DNA of 30,571 nucleotides. Source: a virus. The DNA is taken from IMG/VR virus record IMGVR_UViG_3300025127_000157, positions 1 to 30,571 of that record; one strand, given 5' to 3'. How positions within the stretch are numbered: position 1 is the stretch's first letter; each line of letters starts with the position of its first letter. A program made the position numbers and the translations under genes. Under the pieces are notes generated by a model. It saw only the letters and a program-made list of their open reading frames with translations. It had not been told where the DNA came from and made no database searches. Positions 2,516 through 30,183 of the stretch are shown one piece after another.

Positions 2516-3115
2516 ATGACTGTAGAAAACATATTGACCATTTACAAAATGGCAACACCGGAAGAAAAGCGTGACGGTATCGTATGGTATGCCAACGCGC
2601 TATCAGAATGTAACCGCATATCACTAGACCTAGATGTACCGTTACACATCGTGACGGGTGTATGTGCGGCACTATCCCCCAATAATAAATGGGATAGAAA
2701 CATTGTTAATGCGCGTGATTTATGCCAAGCGTTTATTAACGGTGATGATATAGACAGCGTGAAAGTGTCCACATATCATGCCATGAAGCGCAAGGCATGG
2801 GCTATACTTGAAGCAATGCCCAATCATAGCGGTGTTATTGATATCTTGAATGGGCAAAAGATTGTCTCATTCTATCGTAACATTATGGGTGATGACACTT
2901 GCACGATAGACGGTCATGCGCGTAATATCGCATATGGTGAGCGTGTAGGCTTGACCGATGACAAGACAAACATAGGTGTAAAAGAATATCGCGAGTTACA
3001 AGCACAATATGTGCAAGCGTGTAAGCGTACCCGTGTTAATGGTCGCGCACTCAAAGCGTTTGAATTGCAAGCCATTACATGGGTAACATGGCGTAGAATA
3101 CATAACATTACATAG
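2516..3115 (+). CDS. Conserved phage protein resembling the HhH-GPD DNA glycosylase core
   Basis: 199 aa with a strong ribosome binding site (GAGGTGAATT) before ATG 2516. This family is common in phages and usually left unnamed. The region around residues 50-140 follows the order seen in endonuclease III: an early helix LSPNNKWDRNI, a hairpin-like LNGQKIVSFYRN with Lys115, then CTIDGHARNIA with Asp132. In E. coli Nth the catalytic Lys120 and Asp138 lie in a comparable GVGRKTA...VDTH arrangement, 18 apart against 17 here. No Fe-S cysteine cluster is present. A base-excision or modified-base role is an inference; the protein could equally be a nuclease-dead relative. Confidence 0.6.
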   Translation: MTVENILTIYKMATPEEKRDGIVWYANALSECNRISLDLDVPLHIVTGVCAALSPNNKWDRNIVNARDLCQAFINGDDIDSVKVSTYHAMKRKAWAILEAMPNHSGVIDILNGQKIVSFYRNIMGDDTCTIDGHARNIAYGERVGLTDDKTNIGVKEYRELQAQYVQACKRTRVNGRALKAFELQAITWVTWRRIHNIT

Positions 3116-3125
3116 GGGTGATAAA

Positions 3126-3419
3126 ATGAATAGCGCAAACACACTAATTGAAAACCTATCTATCAATAGGCTTGTGCCTTACTATCTTATGAGTAGTTAT
3201 CTATATTACAAAGAGGACAAGCAGGTATTGACCGATGATGAATTTGATGCACTATGCAAGCGGCTATTGGCTAATTGGGACAGCATAGAACATATGCACA
3301 AGCACCTAATCACTAAAGGTGACTTGACCGCTGGCACTGGGTATGCTATCAAATATACCAACATGATAATAGGTGCTGCCAATAGGTGGTATGAATTAAC
3401 ACAAGCTGAGAGGGCGTGA
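3126..3419 (+). CDS. Stand-alone protein resembling DNA ligase LigA domain Ia
   Basis: 97 aa. Residues 25-44 (YLYYKEDKQVLTDDEFDAL) line up without gaps with the NMN-binding domain Ia of NAD-dependent ligase (YLYHVMDAPEIPDAEYDRL in E. coli), keeping both tyrosines, the middle Asp and the D-x-E-[YF]-D signature. The adenylation, OB and HhH domains of LigA are absent, so it cannot be a ligase on its own. It might bind NAD/NMN or interact with the host ligase. The start ATG 3126 has a GGGGTGATAAA site. The alignment is from memory of the LigA sequence; function is inferred. Confidence 0.55.
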   Translation: MNSANTLIENLSINRLVPYYLMSSYLYYKEDKQVLTDDEFDALCKRLLANWDSIEHMHKHLITKGDLTAGTGYAIKYTNMIIGAANRWYELTQAERA

Positions 3420-23838: not shown

Positions 23839-24195
23839 CTACGCTTCTTTCACTAATCCTATTTGTTTAAATAAATCTTTTTTCATTTCTTTACCTATAG
23901 CCGTGCCACCTTTTGTTTTAACCGTAACATCAGGATTATTTATAGCATCCGTAACACTAGGTCGATTTTTATTTTGTATACTTTTTCTCTTTTCTTGTAG
24001 CATTTTAAATGCTTCTAAAGCAACATCAGCAGGTTCTTTATTGTCTTTTTCTTTTTTATCCATCATCTTTCGTGGTGTTAGTAAACCAGAAGTCTCTGCT
24101 GGCTTTTCTTCTGCGGAAACATTCCTTGCACCACGCAAAAAGTCTGCATAAGCAGCTAGAATATGGTCAGCTTTAAATAAATCTTCTTGCGACAT
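23839..24195 (-). CDS. Hypothetical charged late protein (118 aa)
   Basis: Starts in a TAATG overlap with the preceding 687-aa gene. Highly charged and Lys-rich, with a helical N-terminus (EDLFKADHILAAYADFLRGA) and a disordered-looking middle (KMMDKKEKDNKEPADV). No motif was recognised. Its place among the internal proteins suggests a virion role. Confidence 0.6.
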   Translation of the reverse strand: MSQEDLFKADHILAAYADFLRGARNVSAEEKPAETSGLLTPRKMMDKKEKDNKEPADVALEAFKMLQEKRKSIQNKNRPSVTDAINNPDVTVKTKGGTAIGKEMKKDLFKQIGLVKEA

Positions 24196-26482: not shown

Positions 26483-26652
26483 TAGTCAGCATCCGCTATG
26501 GTCAGTTCGCCAGCTTCTACTTGGCGCATGATTTCTGCGTAGTGGCGATTATTTGTATTTATTGGAACTGAACAGGATTTAGCATCAATGACGCAAGAAA
26601 CGCTTACATTTACACCTTCTTCTTTAAAGTATTTTGCATTTTCAATTATCAT
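26482..26652 (-). CDS. Small conserved late protein (56 aa)
   Basis: Translated from ATG 26652, directly after the stop of the fibre gene (TAAATG) with GGAG in its last codons. It begins MIIENAKYFKEEGVNVSV and ends VEAGELTIADAD. I recall this pattern (a strand pair, then NRHYAEIM-like helix) in short proteins of marine phage tail cassettes, without a known function. Its stop overlaps the next start as TAATG. Confidence 0.65.
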   Translation of the reverse strand: MIIENAKYFKEEGVNVSVSCVIDAKSCSVPINTNNRHYAEIMRQVEAGELTIADAD

Positions 26653-27765
26653 TTATAGCTCCGCATCTAATTCAATGTAAGCATCTGCGTCATTATTTGT
26701 GCGAAACACACCACCAGTCGCACTTGTATAACCACTGCCACCTAAAGTTATTGATACTGGGCTTTCTTCTCCTGTAGTTGAAATTGATACAGATGAAACG
26801 GCTCCAATTCCTAATATTTGAAAAGCACCACTGCTTGTTAATGTTGGTGCAGTTCTCATTCGACTAGGCATATCCAAAACTCCCCTAGCCGCACTTGTAC
26901 TGTAGGCGGCAACATTACAAATATCTGAATAAGCCGCATTGTCTATATACTTTAAATAATATCTCTGACACTTCGTAAGCGTAGTGCCAAATGCTTCATG
27001 CTCAAACGATGTGGCTACATCGCCTATCTCAAGCTGAACACCCGTAAGTTCAATATAATTATCTGCCGCACCTACAATATTTTGTTGATTTGACGTGGAA
27101 AAGTTTGCTGTTCCGTTTTGCGCCCAAGTGCCACTTGTTCCACTCTGGTAATCTGAACCATAAGCCAACCCCCATATTACTCTAAAACCTGCGCCGTTAT
27201 CATTCACTATCGCACCAGAGGAACCTTGAACAGCAGAATTTGCAACAGCATTTAAGGTGTATCTTTCCCAAGTATTAGCTGATGAGACGGTAAACTCTAA
27301 TGGACAGGTAGTTCTTGTAGTATCTATTTTATCTATACACACTGTGTGTACACCAGTTACGTTACTTTTGTAATAAAAAGATAATGTTAAATTTTTAGCA
27401 CCGGAACTTCCAAACTTTAAAGTTTGTAAATTTTGTGCTTCTATACTTTGCATTAACTGCACAGATTGACTACTTCCAATACTTGTGTCAGCAGTTGTAA
27501 CTAAAACTTTTAAACTATGCTTTAGTCCCGCATCAAAAGCATCACCAGTTGTAAGTGTTTCTTGCGACATAGTAAGAGTTGAGTCTGCGGCCTCATCCAT
27601 TTCCCATCTATCAATGACAAAAACTCCAGCACCAGTAATTGAAGCTGTTGACGTGCCACGCTGTGCAACCTTCATCCCACCATTGATGATAAAGTTGCGG
27701 TTTGGTGTTAAATTGCTTGCATCTTGCGAACCTATCAGTGCCGCTAGTTCTGCTGCTTTACTCAT
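26653..27765 (-). CDS. Tail fibre-like protein (370 aa)
   Basis: Residues 17-38 (LTPNRNFIINGGMKVAQRG within this span) are a conserved opening of many phage tail-fibre proteins. The middle (about 40-250) is beta-rich with Ser/Thr/Gly and looks like a carbohydrate-binding jelly roll (SFYYKSNVTGVHTVCIDKI); VQLEIGDVATSFEHEAFGTT near 245 is another familiar fibre element. The C-terminal third is variable in type and probably binds the host surface. It starts in an ATGA overlap with the preceding tail protein. Confidence 0.8.
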   Translation of the reverse strand: MSKAAELAALIGSQDASNLTPNRNFIINGGMKVAQRGTSTASITGAGVFVIDRWEMDEAADSTLTMSQETLTTGDAFDAGLKHSLKVLVTTADTSIGSSQSVQLMQSIEAQNLQTLKFGSSGAKNLTLSFYYKSNVTGVHTVCIDKIDTTRTTCPLEFTVSSANTWERYTLNAVANSAVQGSSGAIVNDNGAGFRVIWGLAYGSDYQSGTSGTWAQNGTANFSTSNQQNIVGAADNYIELTGVQLEIGDVATSFEHEAFGTTLTKCQRYYLKYIDNAAYSDICNVAAYSTSAARGVLDMPSRMRTAPTLTSSGAFQILGIGAVSSVSISTTGEESPVSITLGGSGYTSATGGVFRTNNDADAYIELDAEL

Positions 27766-28145
27766 GCTAAGTCTCCGTGTGCCGCTGTCATAACGTAACC
27801 ATTATCAGTAAGGGTGCCATCGCTACCTTGAACTCTAACGCCAGATGCAGATGCTGTTCTATTAGCAATTTCTAACCGTATTTCATCCTGTCCTGTACCA
27901 TAAGTTTCTGCAAAATTAGCATTTGAAAATGCACTAACAAATGCATATGCGTAATAACCTGTTCCTTCATCTGTTGTCGTTGTTATATTGAAACTTTCTT
28001 TTATTTCAGTGTCAGAGCCATCAAAAGTTGCACTACCATTTAAGTGCATCCATGCCTTCGCACTACCACCCGCCACAAAGCTGGTAGCAATGCTGTTATT
28101 ACCGCTGGCATCCTTTAATGTGTTAACTCTAAGTTCGCTTGCCAT
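27762..28145 (-). CDS. Tail protein paralogue 3 of a tandem set (127 aa)
   Basis: Opens with MASELRVNTLKDASGNNSIA, shares the AKAWM and KESFNITTTTDEGTGYY elements with its two upstream neighbours, and ends in HGDLA. Beta-rich, Ser/Thr/Gly-rich, no cysteines. Such short proteins with a conserved head sit at the tip of marine phage tails; their exact place is unknown. The last codons carry GGAGA, the ribosome site of the fibre gene that follows. Confidence 0.7.
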   Translation of the reverse strand: MASELRVNTLKDASGNNSIATSFVAGGSAKAWMHLNGSATFDGSDTEIKESFNITTTTDEGTGYYAYAFVSAFSNANFAETYGTGQDEIRLEIANRTASASGVRVQGSDGTLTDNGYVMTAAHGDLA

Positions 28146-28537
28146 TATGCTAAGTCTCCAAGTGCTTCTGTTCCACAGTCAGTTACACTATCTTCAGAAC
28201 GTGACATATTGTACCAAGTGCCTATGCCGTATGCGCTGGTTGATGAGGCATCACAATGAGTTTCTCTGCCGTAGATAGTGAACGTACAAGTAGTGACTGC
28301 GTAGTTTGCATTGCCCATATTATTGGTGAAATTTACTTCAAAGTTTCCTGTTGCTGTGTCAGTAATACTGCTCGTATTTAGACTGTCACTCAAAGCTGCG
28401 GCAACAGTAAATTTTGCCCATTGCTTTGCCAAACCCTGCTGAAGATTAGTCGTGGTTGAGTTGCCCTCGCCAGTAACGCTAATGGAGCCAGCGGTGGTTA
28501 CACCTGTCAGGGTATCTACTTTAAGAATACTAGCCAT
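28145..28537 (-). CDS. Tail protein paralogue 2 of a tandem set (130 aa)
   Basis: Same plan as its neighbours: MASILKVDTLTGVT opening, AKQWAKF, then SDSLNTSSITDTATGNFEVN and NANYAV, and the LGDLA end. It has four cysteines in the variable second half (TTCTFTIYGRETHC, TDCG), unlike the other two. Starts in a TAATG overlap. The GGAGAC of GDLA lies 10-12 bases before the next start. Confidence 0.7.
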   Translation of the reverse strand: MASILKVDTLTGVTTAGSISVTGEGNSTTTNLQQGLAKQWAKFTVAAALSDSLNTSSITDTATGNFEVNFTNNMGNANYAVTTCTFTIYGRETHCDASSTSAYGIGTWYNMSRSEDSVTDCGTEALGDLA

Positions 28538-28926
28538 TATGCGAGGTCTCCGTGTGCGTGATATTGTGATATATTTAAGTCTATCAACGCTGACATACTC
28601 ATACTTTGCAAAAATATTTCTGACGCACTATCCCCACGAACTGCTTCGGCATTTCTATTGTAGTTTCCTGACCCATTATTCGTTGTTGTATTTTGTCCAG
28701 ATGCCGTACAAGATATTGTAGTTGTTGAAGAAAATGCATTAGTTATAGCAACTTTTTGTCTTCCTGTTGCGGTATCTGCTGTCGAACTTACATTAAAACT
28801 GTCGTTTATGCTTGTTCCATTATCAACGCTTGTTATCCAAGATTTTACAGCTTGTTGCTTAATCAGCGCAACAGGCCCAGTACCAGCCTTGTCAGCAATG
28901 GTATCTACATTCAACACACTGGTCAT
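28537..28926 (-). CDS. Tail protein paralogue 1 of a tandem set (129 aa)
   Basis: I place the start at ATG 28926 (MTSVLNVDTIADKAG), which overlaps the previous stop as ATGA and has TGGAG upstream; the ATG at 28938 lacks these. Elements VKSWITSV, INDSFNVSSTADTATG and the C-terminal HGDLA match the next two genes. Beta-rich, low in charged residues. Likely part of the tail tip or fibre network. Confidence 0.7.
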   Translation of the reverse strand: MTSVLNVDTIADKAGTGPVALIKQQAVKSWITSVDNGTSINDSFNVSSTADTATGRQKVAITNAFSSTTTISCTASGQNTTTNNGSGNYNRNAEAVRGDSASEIFLQSMSMSALIDLNISQYHAHGDLA

Positions 28927-29381
28927 ACGATACTCCAATATCCATTAACGGTGACAGTTGCGTTCTGTGTAATTGGTCCTGCCGATACGCCATTCTCATC
29001 ACTGTCAATCGTAATATCTGCACTGATGGTCTGCCCATTCAAGCGGATGATGCTGTTGTTACCCTTGAATGGATAGCGTGTGTCACTCTCTGTCTTAGTG
29101 TAGCTACTTGCTACAGCAAAGGTATCATACACCACCATCTCAACAATGTCGTTCAGGCTGGCGGCTGTGACTAATACAACGCTTGTGCCTGTTGTGGCTG
29201 CATAGTCAGTACCCGGCTTGAGAAGCACACCGTTCTGATACACGTCCATGTACAGGCTGTCTGTATAGCTTAGTGTTTTTGCATCGCCATCACTACCACT
29301 AAATGTCGTTTGACTAGCAGTAGCCTGATACACAAAGCGGTTGCGAACACCAAACTCTGGGGATTTTCCTATATATGGCAT
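28923..29381 (-). CDS. Tail fibre/tail tip protein (152 aa)
   Basis: Start set at ATG 29381, giving MPYIGKSPEFGVRNRF, the usual opening of this marine phage family, with a TAATG overlap; the ATG at 29399 would add six residues. Residues 15-85 (YQATASQTTFSG ... LYMDVYQNGVLLKPGTDYAA) form a beta-sandwich domain frequent at the base of phage fibres. The C-terminus is a short beta segment (TVTVNGYWSIV). Probable structural adaptor in the tail. Confidence 0.8.
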   Translation of the reverse strand: MPYIGKSPEFGVRNRFVYQATASQTTFSGSDGDAKTLSYTDSLYMDVYQNGVLLKPGTDYAATTGTSVVLVTAASLNDIVEMVVYDTFAVASSYTKTESDTRYPFKGNNSIIRLNGQTISADITIDSDENGVSAGPITQNATVTVNGYWSIV

Positions 29382-29716
29382 TATGGTTTCTCCGGCCACT
29401 TAACATCATCAAGTGATGTTGCAGTTTTTGTTATATCACGCAATTCTTGGCGATAAGTTGTCATATCAGAAGACATGGTTTGGTCAGACAGACCATAATG
29501 GTCAGTTTCAGCCAAGCGTTTGTTGCGTTCAGTACGCAATTCTTCTAGCTTTGCTGCGTTTTCAAGTTCTGTTGTCTTTGTAGCTACAGCACTTGAATCC
29601 CAAGACACCACATTACCGTTTGCATCATGTGCAATTATATCTTCCCCATTTCCTGCGGTGCGTATTACGCTTGGATATAATGCGTAGATTGCTTCATGTT
29701 TCATGTTGACAATCAT
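29381..29716 (-). CDS. Tail fibre assembly / chaperone-like protein (111 aa)
   Basis: The C-terminal half RTERNKRLAETDHYGLSDQ followed by TYRQELRDIT is the recognisable signature of phage tail assembly chaperone-type proteins (the group including Pfam Phage_tail_APC). The N-terminal half is a small beta domain (EAIYALYPSVIRTAG). These helpers act on fibre proteins and may not stay in the virion. GGAGATAG in the previous gene's last codons serves ATG 29716. Confidence 0.75.
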   Translation of the reverse strand: MIVNMKHEAIYALYPSVIRTAGNGEDIIAHDANGNVVSWDSSAVATKTTELENAAKLEELRTERNKRLAETDHYGLSDQTMSSDMTTYRQELRDITKTATSLDDVKWPEKP

Positions 29717-30183
29717 CCGGCTATCTCCATCAGGATTAGTTCAGCGGGTATGTTGTCATAAACAAAGTATTTAACAGTGGATGAAGAACTAGCCTTAAAA
29801 CCAACCTGATATGTTTGTGCGCTTGTTGTCGAAGGTTCATCTACAACTTCAAAAGTCATGTTGTGAATTGTTTGACCAGAACTAGCAAAAGCCCGAGCTA
29901 ATCCATTACTTGATTCACCTAAATGAGTGCCGGAAGCAACAGTTCCACGATATAGCGTTACATAGCTACTATGCGCGCTACTATTGGTATAAGTGCTGGT
30001 AGTGAATCTGATAAGTATTTTACTACTTGTGCTTATCGGTGTAATGGTTCCTTCGATAGCCGGACTGCCAAGAGAAACAAAACTGGTTGAAGATGTTGTT
30101 ACTTCTGTTGAAAATGGAGCTACAACAACTTGCAGTATTTTACCCGAAGATAAACCGCCAGATTCAATTTTAGTTAAAGTCAT
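29713..30183 (-). CDS. Tail fibre-like protein (156 aa)
   Basis: Ser/Thr-rich beta protein: TKIESGGLSSGKILQVV at the start, then repeated strands, and the closing ILMEIAG that I recall from the C-termini of many marine phage fibre-like proteins. Such domains form a trimeric or jelly-roll tip; receptor binding is an inference. GGATAAG lies before ATG 30183. The final MEIAG codons carry the next gene's ribosome site. Confidence 0.75.
   Translation of the reverse strand: MTLTKIESGGLSSGKILQVVVAPFSTEVTTSSTSFVSLGSPAIEGTITPISTSSKILIRFTTSTYTNSSAHSSYVTLYRGTVASGTHLGESSNGLARAFASSGQTIHNMTFEVVDEPSTTSAQTYQVGFKASSSSTVKYFVYDNIPAELILMEIAG

Follow-up and report, generated by a model that had tools for sequence, protein, structure and literature searches.

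Short conserved boundary or linker sequences lie between the exchangeable mosaic modules of lambdoid phages, and conserved residues at the C-terminus of a protein are usually interpreted as protein function. Gene pairs that overlap by −4 or −1, with the Shine-Dalgarno (SD) sequence of the downstream gene inside the 3′ end of the upstream gene, are known (Huber et al. 2019, PMC6728339; review, PMC12548453). In PMC6728339, removal of the SD sequence from five Escherichia coli pairs cut reinitiation by 60 to 90% in three of them and abolished it in one. Text searches of PMC6728339 and PMC12548453 gave nothing on an effect of the SD sequence on the C-terminus of the upstream protein; literature on SD sites shaping protein C-termini was likewise not found, an absence that is weak evidence. 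The nearest sequenced isolate to the window (the whole stretch of DNA analyzed here, a viral contig of 30.6 kb) is the SAR116/Puniceispirillum phage HMO-2011 (GU557055; PMC9038755), which the window resembles in its tail region. Five genes of the HMO-2011 tail array likewise end in the residues GDLA, every one overlapping the next gene, and a text search of PMC9038755 returned nothing on overlaps or SD sites.

The tail array of the window has the stop/start overlaps of −1 and −4 and the intragenic SD sites of the translationally coupled pairs in PMC6728339. Because such overlaps are already well known, this part of the finding is ordinary. Compared with what the text searches of PMC6728339 and PMC12548453 showed, two features differ: the end residues of one protein family switch with the spacing of the next gene, and one joint recurs through a whole array. 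Translational coupling is known, and the finding represents a strong new form of it. Like the lambdoid linkers, the GDLA joint is a short conserved border sequence with mosaic modules on either side; unlike them, it is coding, contains a stop, a start and a ribosome site, and marks the edge of a domain within a gene, not of a whole module.

The tail region of the window is a chain of small genes on the minus strand, which includes the following:

29381..29716, minus strand: tail assembly chaperone (PF16778, Phage_tail_APC; Pfam E = 1.9e-13), ending in WPEKP
28537..28926, minus strand: small tail-fibre-like protein (phrog_11355, E = 2.7e-10), anchor MTSVLNVDTIADKAG, ending in HGDLA
28145..28537, minus strand: small tail-fibre-like protein (phrog_11355), anchor MASILKVDTLTG, ending in LGDLA
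27762..28145, minus strand: small tail-fibre-like protein (phrog_11355), anchor MASELRVNTLKD, ending in HGDLA
26653..27765, minus strand: larger tail-fibre-like protein (phrog_4492, E = 1.9e-51), starting MSKAAELAALIG, ending in LDAEL

The chaperone match to PF16778 scores 50.5 bits, above the curated cutoff of 26.6. All three GDLA genes match the tail fibre profile phrog_11355 (E = 2.7e-10, 1.3e-15 and 2.7e-9), so their GDLA ends are not independent occurrences, and the idea that three independent proteins share the motif was rejected. At the chaperone gene, Melnitz phages share short DNA matches of 77 to 80% with the window, and Methylophilales phage Melnitz-2 (MZ577096) has the same chaperone end, WPEKP TAATG.

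The joints between these genes read as follows:

29713..29728, minus strand: MEIAG end, ATG GAG ATA GCC GG-ATGA; GGAG at 29728-29725, ATGA overlap at 29716-29713
29379..29393, minus strand: WPEKP end of the chaperone, CCG GAG AAA CCA TAATG; GGAG at 29393-29390, ATG at 29381-29379
28923..28936, minus strand: YWSIV end, TAT TGG AGT ATC GTATGA; GGAG at 28936-28933, ATGA at 28926-28923
28535..28551, minus strand: first GDLA joint, CAC GGA GAC CTC GCA TAATG, read directly
28143..28159, minus strand: second GDLA joint, CTT GGA GAC TTA GCA TAATG, read directly
27762..27776, minus strand: third GDLA joint, CAC GGA GAC TTA GCATGA, an ATGA overlap, read directly
26650..26662, minus strand: DAEL end, GCG GAG CTA TAA ATG; the next ATG abuts the stop
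about 24206-24202, minus strand: FGGS end, with GGAGG there and TAATG at 24195

An earlier note on this DNA had reported three consecutive tail genes ending in GDLA with GGAGA and an overlapping start, a distance of 7 to 10 bases from the SD sequence to that start, and SD sequences in the end codons of the preceding genes (MEIAG, WPEKP and YWSIV). Direct reading confirmed the triplet, GGAG lies 7 nt from the ATG at ATGA-type GDLA ends and 10 nt at TAATG-type ends, and all three preceding ends are exact; the DAEL and FGGS ends were absent from that note.

We consider it very probable that these gene ends are dual-use joints, in which an SD sequence in the gene end and an overlapping start serve both translational coupling and domain exchange, under a second constraint besides. 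The last four codons and stop of a GDLA gene (GGA GAC YTN GCA TAATG or ...GCATGA) would carry the SD sequence and start of the next gene. Since both lie within the gene end, a ribosome finishing one tail protein would be positioned to begin the next; we infer termination-reinitiation here, as well as use of the sites in vivo. Because every GDLA gene of the array ends in the same joint, the C-terminal domain, which runs for about 95 residues from an invariant AK.W motif to that joint, would be exchangeable between N-terminal anchors. A swapped domain would bring along its stop codon and a ribosome site that serves any following gene, the swapping presumably being performed by homologous recombination at the joint. 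The second constraint may act on amino acids (Gly, Leu and a small last residue) and on nucleotides outside the SD sequence, and could arise from repeated exchange through the joint, a mild structural role, or both.

The codon pattern on which this reading builds extends well beyond the window. Of 257 tail family members on about 80 related contigs, 248 end in GDLA, nearly all in TAATG or ATGA overlaps, with up to seven GDLA-type genes per contig. When distinct GDLA ends were counted over 80 related viral contigs, HMO-2011 and the window, 266 of 268 had one of these two overlaps and one further overlap was TAGTG. In HMO-2011, a neighboring gene whose successor is spaced ends in TDLAA, with the SD sequence in the spacer. 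The glycine codon is GGA at 246 of the 248 family GDLA ends, compared with 17.9% in the bodies of genes of these kinds. All 245 of 245 GDLA overlaps reach a predicted duplex energy with the anti-SD tail of 16S rRNA of −4.5 kcal/mol or lower (mean, −6.8 kcal/mol; gene interiors, −1.9 kcal/mol), and spaced genes, with their site in the spacer, average −7.4 kcal/mol.

In deduplicated gene pairs, with gene starts assigned from proximity throughout, GGAG fell within the final 18 nt of the upstream gene at 363 of 465 overlaps versus 0 of 135 pairs with a spacer of 8 to 14 nt (Fisher P = 3e-69). With all GDLA genes removed, the contrast was 118/218 versus 0/135 (P = 5e-33). These P values are inflated by kinship of the contigs; the contrast itself is near-absolute. 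The codon background and the spacing contrasts together rule out a chance origin of the pattern. In pelagiphages HTVC203P, HTVC115P and HTVC019P, the chaperone ends in FPTKP(A/E) and overlaps the next gene by −1, yet GGAG is absent; the rule therefore does not hold everywhere and depends on phage or host.

The entire viral collection was scanned with GGAGACNNNGCATAATG, a family-independent pattern that leaves the Leu codon free; the matches listed included 162 plausible gene junctions, 154 of them with Leu at that codon. The same type of scan with any Gly codon except GGA gave just 65 stretches in the whole collection; those inside arrays had GGG, itself SD-like, with a single GGT exception (L205). 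A scan with a Microcystis phage homologue as the query gave no matches, and a diverse GDLA alignment offered no conserved stretch with which to search viral contigs.

The clearest case of protein ends following the neighbor is the chaperone. Where the next gene overlaps by −1, 20 of 22 chaperones end in WPEKP or WPEIP (CCG GAG AAA CCA TAATG). Of 23 chaperones whose next gene starts at 0 to +4, in nearly every case +3, 22 have a terminal Glu, mostly as WPTKPE; the DNA reads CCG GAG TAA NNN ATG, and the Glu is shifted in position relative to WPEKP. At wider spacing, 19 of 23 end in WPTKP, the SD sequence lies in the spacer, and GGAG or GAGG occurs in the last 15 nt of 0 of 23 genes. Spacing class changed about 14 times on the chaperone tree, and in six independent pairs on well-supported branches a mean of 5.7 differed as expected and 0.0 in the opposite direction (median P = 0.031). 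The natural series WPEKP/WPTKPE/WPTKP shows end residues set by the ribosome site of the neighbor. A second switch within a family takes MEIT to DAIST, DTISA or HLDIT where the neighbor is spaced. In Variovorax phage VBv52, a tail protein ends in GNLAET (GAG ACC TAA GCT ATG), where the added ET creates GGAG for a start at +3, much as the final Glu of WPTKPE does.

The GDLA family shows a similar dependence on spacing. Every one of 79 same-domain homologues without an overlapping next gene ends in Arg (76 in FR), and neither GDLA nor GGAG in the last 18 nt occurs in any of the 79; these homologues were found with one spaced-gene query and therefore represent one sampled part of the family. Overlapping members in isolated phages end in HGDLA, HGSLA, GETNA, FGGNS or FGGR, which differ in residues and share the same G-rich content, and spaced members end in LELTR, EIFR, AIFY, MVLG, AIFG or VFSN. 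The single genome of Nostoc phage Nsp-JY18 holds LELTR with a 9-nt spacer together with HGSLA and GETNA in overlaps. About seven spacing switches lie on the GDLA family tree, too few for the independent-pair test, which was not significant. Three sequences retain GDLA without an overlapping downstream gene: L032, as GGG GAC TTA GCA TAG with the next gene at +13, and L051 and L075, where GDLA is followed by an orphan start and an eight-codon frame before the next gene. The earlier note's expectation that GDLA is lost where the overlap is lost thus mostly holds: it does so in 79 of 79 homologues, and the retention that the note named as refuting is rare, seen in these three.

A contrasting explanation is that GDLA is purely a protein motif, such as the end of a β-domain or an assembly or folding signal, whose SD content is incidental. 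The Leu is conserved across five synonymous codons (CTC/TTA/CTA/CTT/TTG), and L032 keeps GDLA with GGG beside a spaced neighbor. Moreover, a second tail family (L345-L424, TFTVVGD[LIV][AS], frequently followed by M(x)PILGI) overlaps its neighbors in the same manner and ends in GD[LIV][AS], with Gly encoded as GGC or GGT and no SD sequence; only 14% of its ends pass the anti-SD energy threshold, equal to gene bodies. Its hosts may rely little on SD sites. Against a protein motif alone stand the near-exclusive use of GGA in arrays, the disappearance of GDLA from the 79 homologues lacking an overlapping neighbor, and its replacement by GSLA, GETNA, FGGNS and FGGR in overlapping relatives. A structure model of the 127-residue window protein encoded at 27762..28145 is β-rich, with the last strand at residues 118 to 123 and GDLA beyond it, which fits an appended tail and not a core element. 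A PDB fold search gave weak resemblance to phage tailspike and pyocin fibre proteins (best E = 0.03), and a search of a viral library gave tail-fibre relatives. Overall, we regard a purely protein motif as improbable.

The earlier claim that the motif is kept for translation of the neighbor, not for protein function, is partly supported. Its first half is supported, in that residues track spacing in the chaperone switch, in the 79 homologues and in the spaced members from isolated phages. "Not for protein function" was too strong: the retained Leu and the GD[LIV][AS] ends without an SD sequence give the motif a protein-level side. The remaining codons are also far from background, with GAC at 98% versus 45%, CTC at 59% versus 7% and GCA at 92% versus 39%, whereas third positions vary in the equally conserved AK.W motif of the same genes, so that the joint is also constrained at the nucleotide level, over and above the ribosome site. 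The three sequences that keep GDLA without an overlapping neighbor and the pelagiphage overlaps that lack the site likewise speak against an exclusive role in translation.

Swapped domains were observed directly, with breakpoints at the joint. Within one anchor type, DNA identity falls from about 0.9 at the 5′ end to about 0.3 across the C-terminal half; it is 0.33 to 0.36 in the 15 nt preceding the joint and 0.92 to 0.97 in the final 15 nt. Pairs with similar C-terminal domains (60 residues at 60% identity or more, often 95 to 100%) have different anchors in 43 of 70 cases. One of these involves the window gene at 28145..28537, whose C-terminal 60 residues, GDLA excluded, are 87 to 92% identical to proteins with MTSQLN and MALGKI anchors. 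In 27 pairs with at least 85% identity and with different anchors and next genes, identity is 0.80 to 1.0 in the joint and 0.07 to 0.67 over the 15 nt beyond it; toward the left, it mostly drops about 85 to 100 residues from the end, near AK.W. Swapped or unrelated sequence thus flanks both sides. The suggestion that the genes are exchangeable as cassettes is upheld by these near-identical domains on different anchors, with identity collapsing after the GDLA-stop joint.

Shared ancestry alone, in which three duplicates inherited one end, has in its favor that the three genes belong to one family. Third positions should then have diverged, as is seen in the GD[LIV][AS] family and at AK.W, and the contrast between the conserved joint and the near-random identity of the preceding 15 nt led us to reject an explanation that we judge extremely improbable.

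It is possible, though we lean against it, that the joint serves first of all as a DNA recombination linker with the ribosome site as cargo, the extra conservation of GAC, CTC and GCA being either selected for or upheld by homologous exchange. Such a reading is compatible with dual-use joints. The sharp identity island at which swapped domains exactly stop, the skewed GAC, CTC and GCA usage and the variable third positions of AK.W would all be expected. However, a stretch of 15 nt offers little length for homologous recombination, the sequence at the left breakpoint, near AK.W, is conserved in protein and little in DNA, and selection acting on any random exchange already predicts breakpoints at gene ends. 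A more speculative extension, to which we give only tentative credence, is that the GDLA joint acts as a portable plug, a coding sequence of 15 to 17 nt comprising stop, start, ribosome site and recombination homology, selected for exchangeability itself. If so, tail domains could be shuffled in any array order with translation intact. After GDLA in L051 (about 605-640) and L075 (about 3320-3355), TAATGGCTAGTATAGGAGAAAACAAATGA encodes the eight-codon frame MASIGENK with its own AGGAG, and this orphan joint looks like the possible scar of a lost or swapped cassette.

Dual-use joints would explain, in concrete and testable terms, how abundant marine phages reshuffle tail domains while leaving operon translation unbroken, with the translation needs of the neighbor helping to decide how tail proteins end in a widespread marine phage group. 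Ends set by a neighbor affect the reading of conservation, structure-function guesses and start-codon annotation in gene-dense genomes. In HMO-2011, the GenBank starts of two tail genes, at 3064 and 5155, are TTG codons inside the preceding gene (LAGETIMALGK and LEYRMTSVL); comparison favors the ATG of the TAATG or ATGA overlap as the probable start of each.
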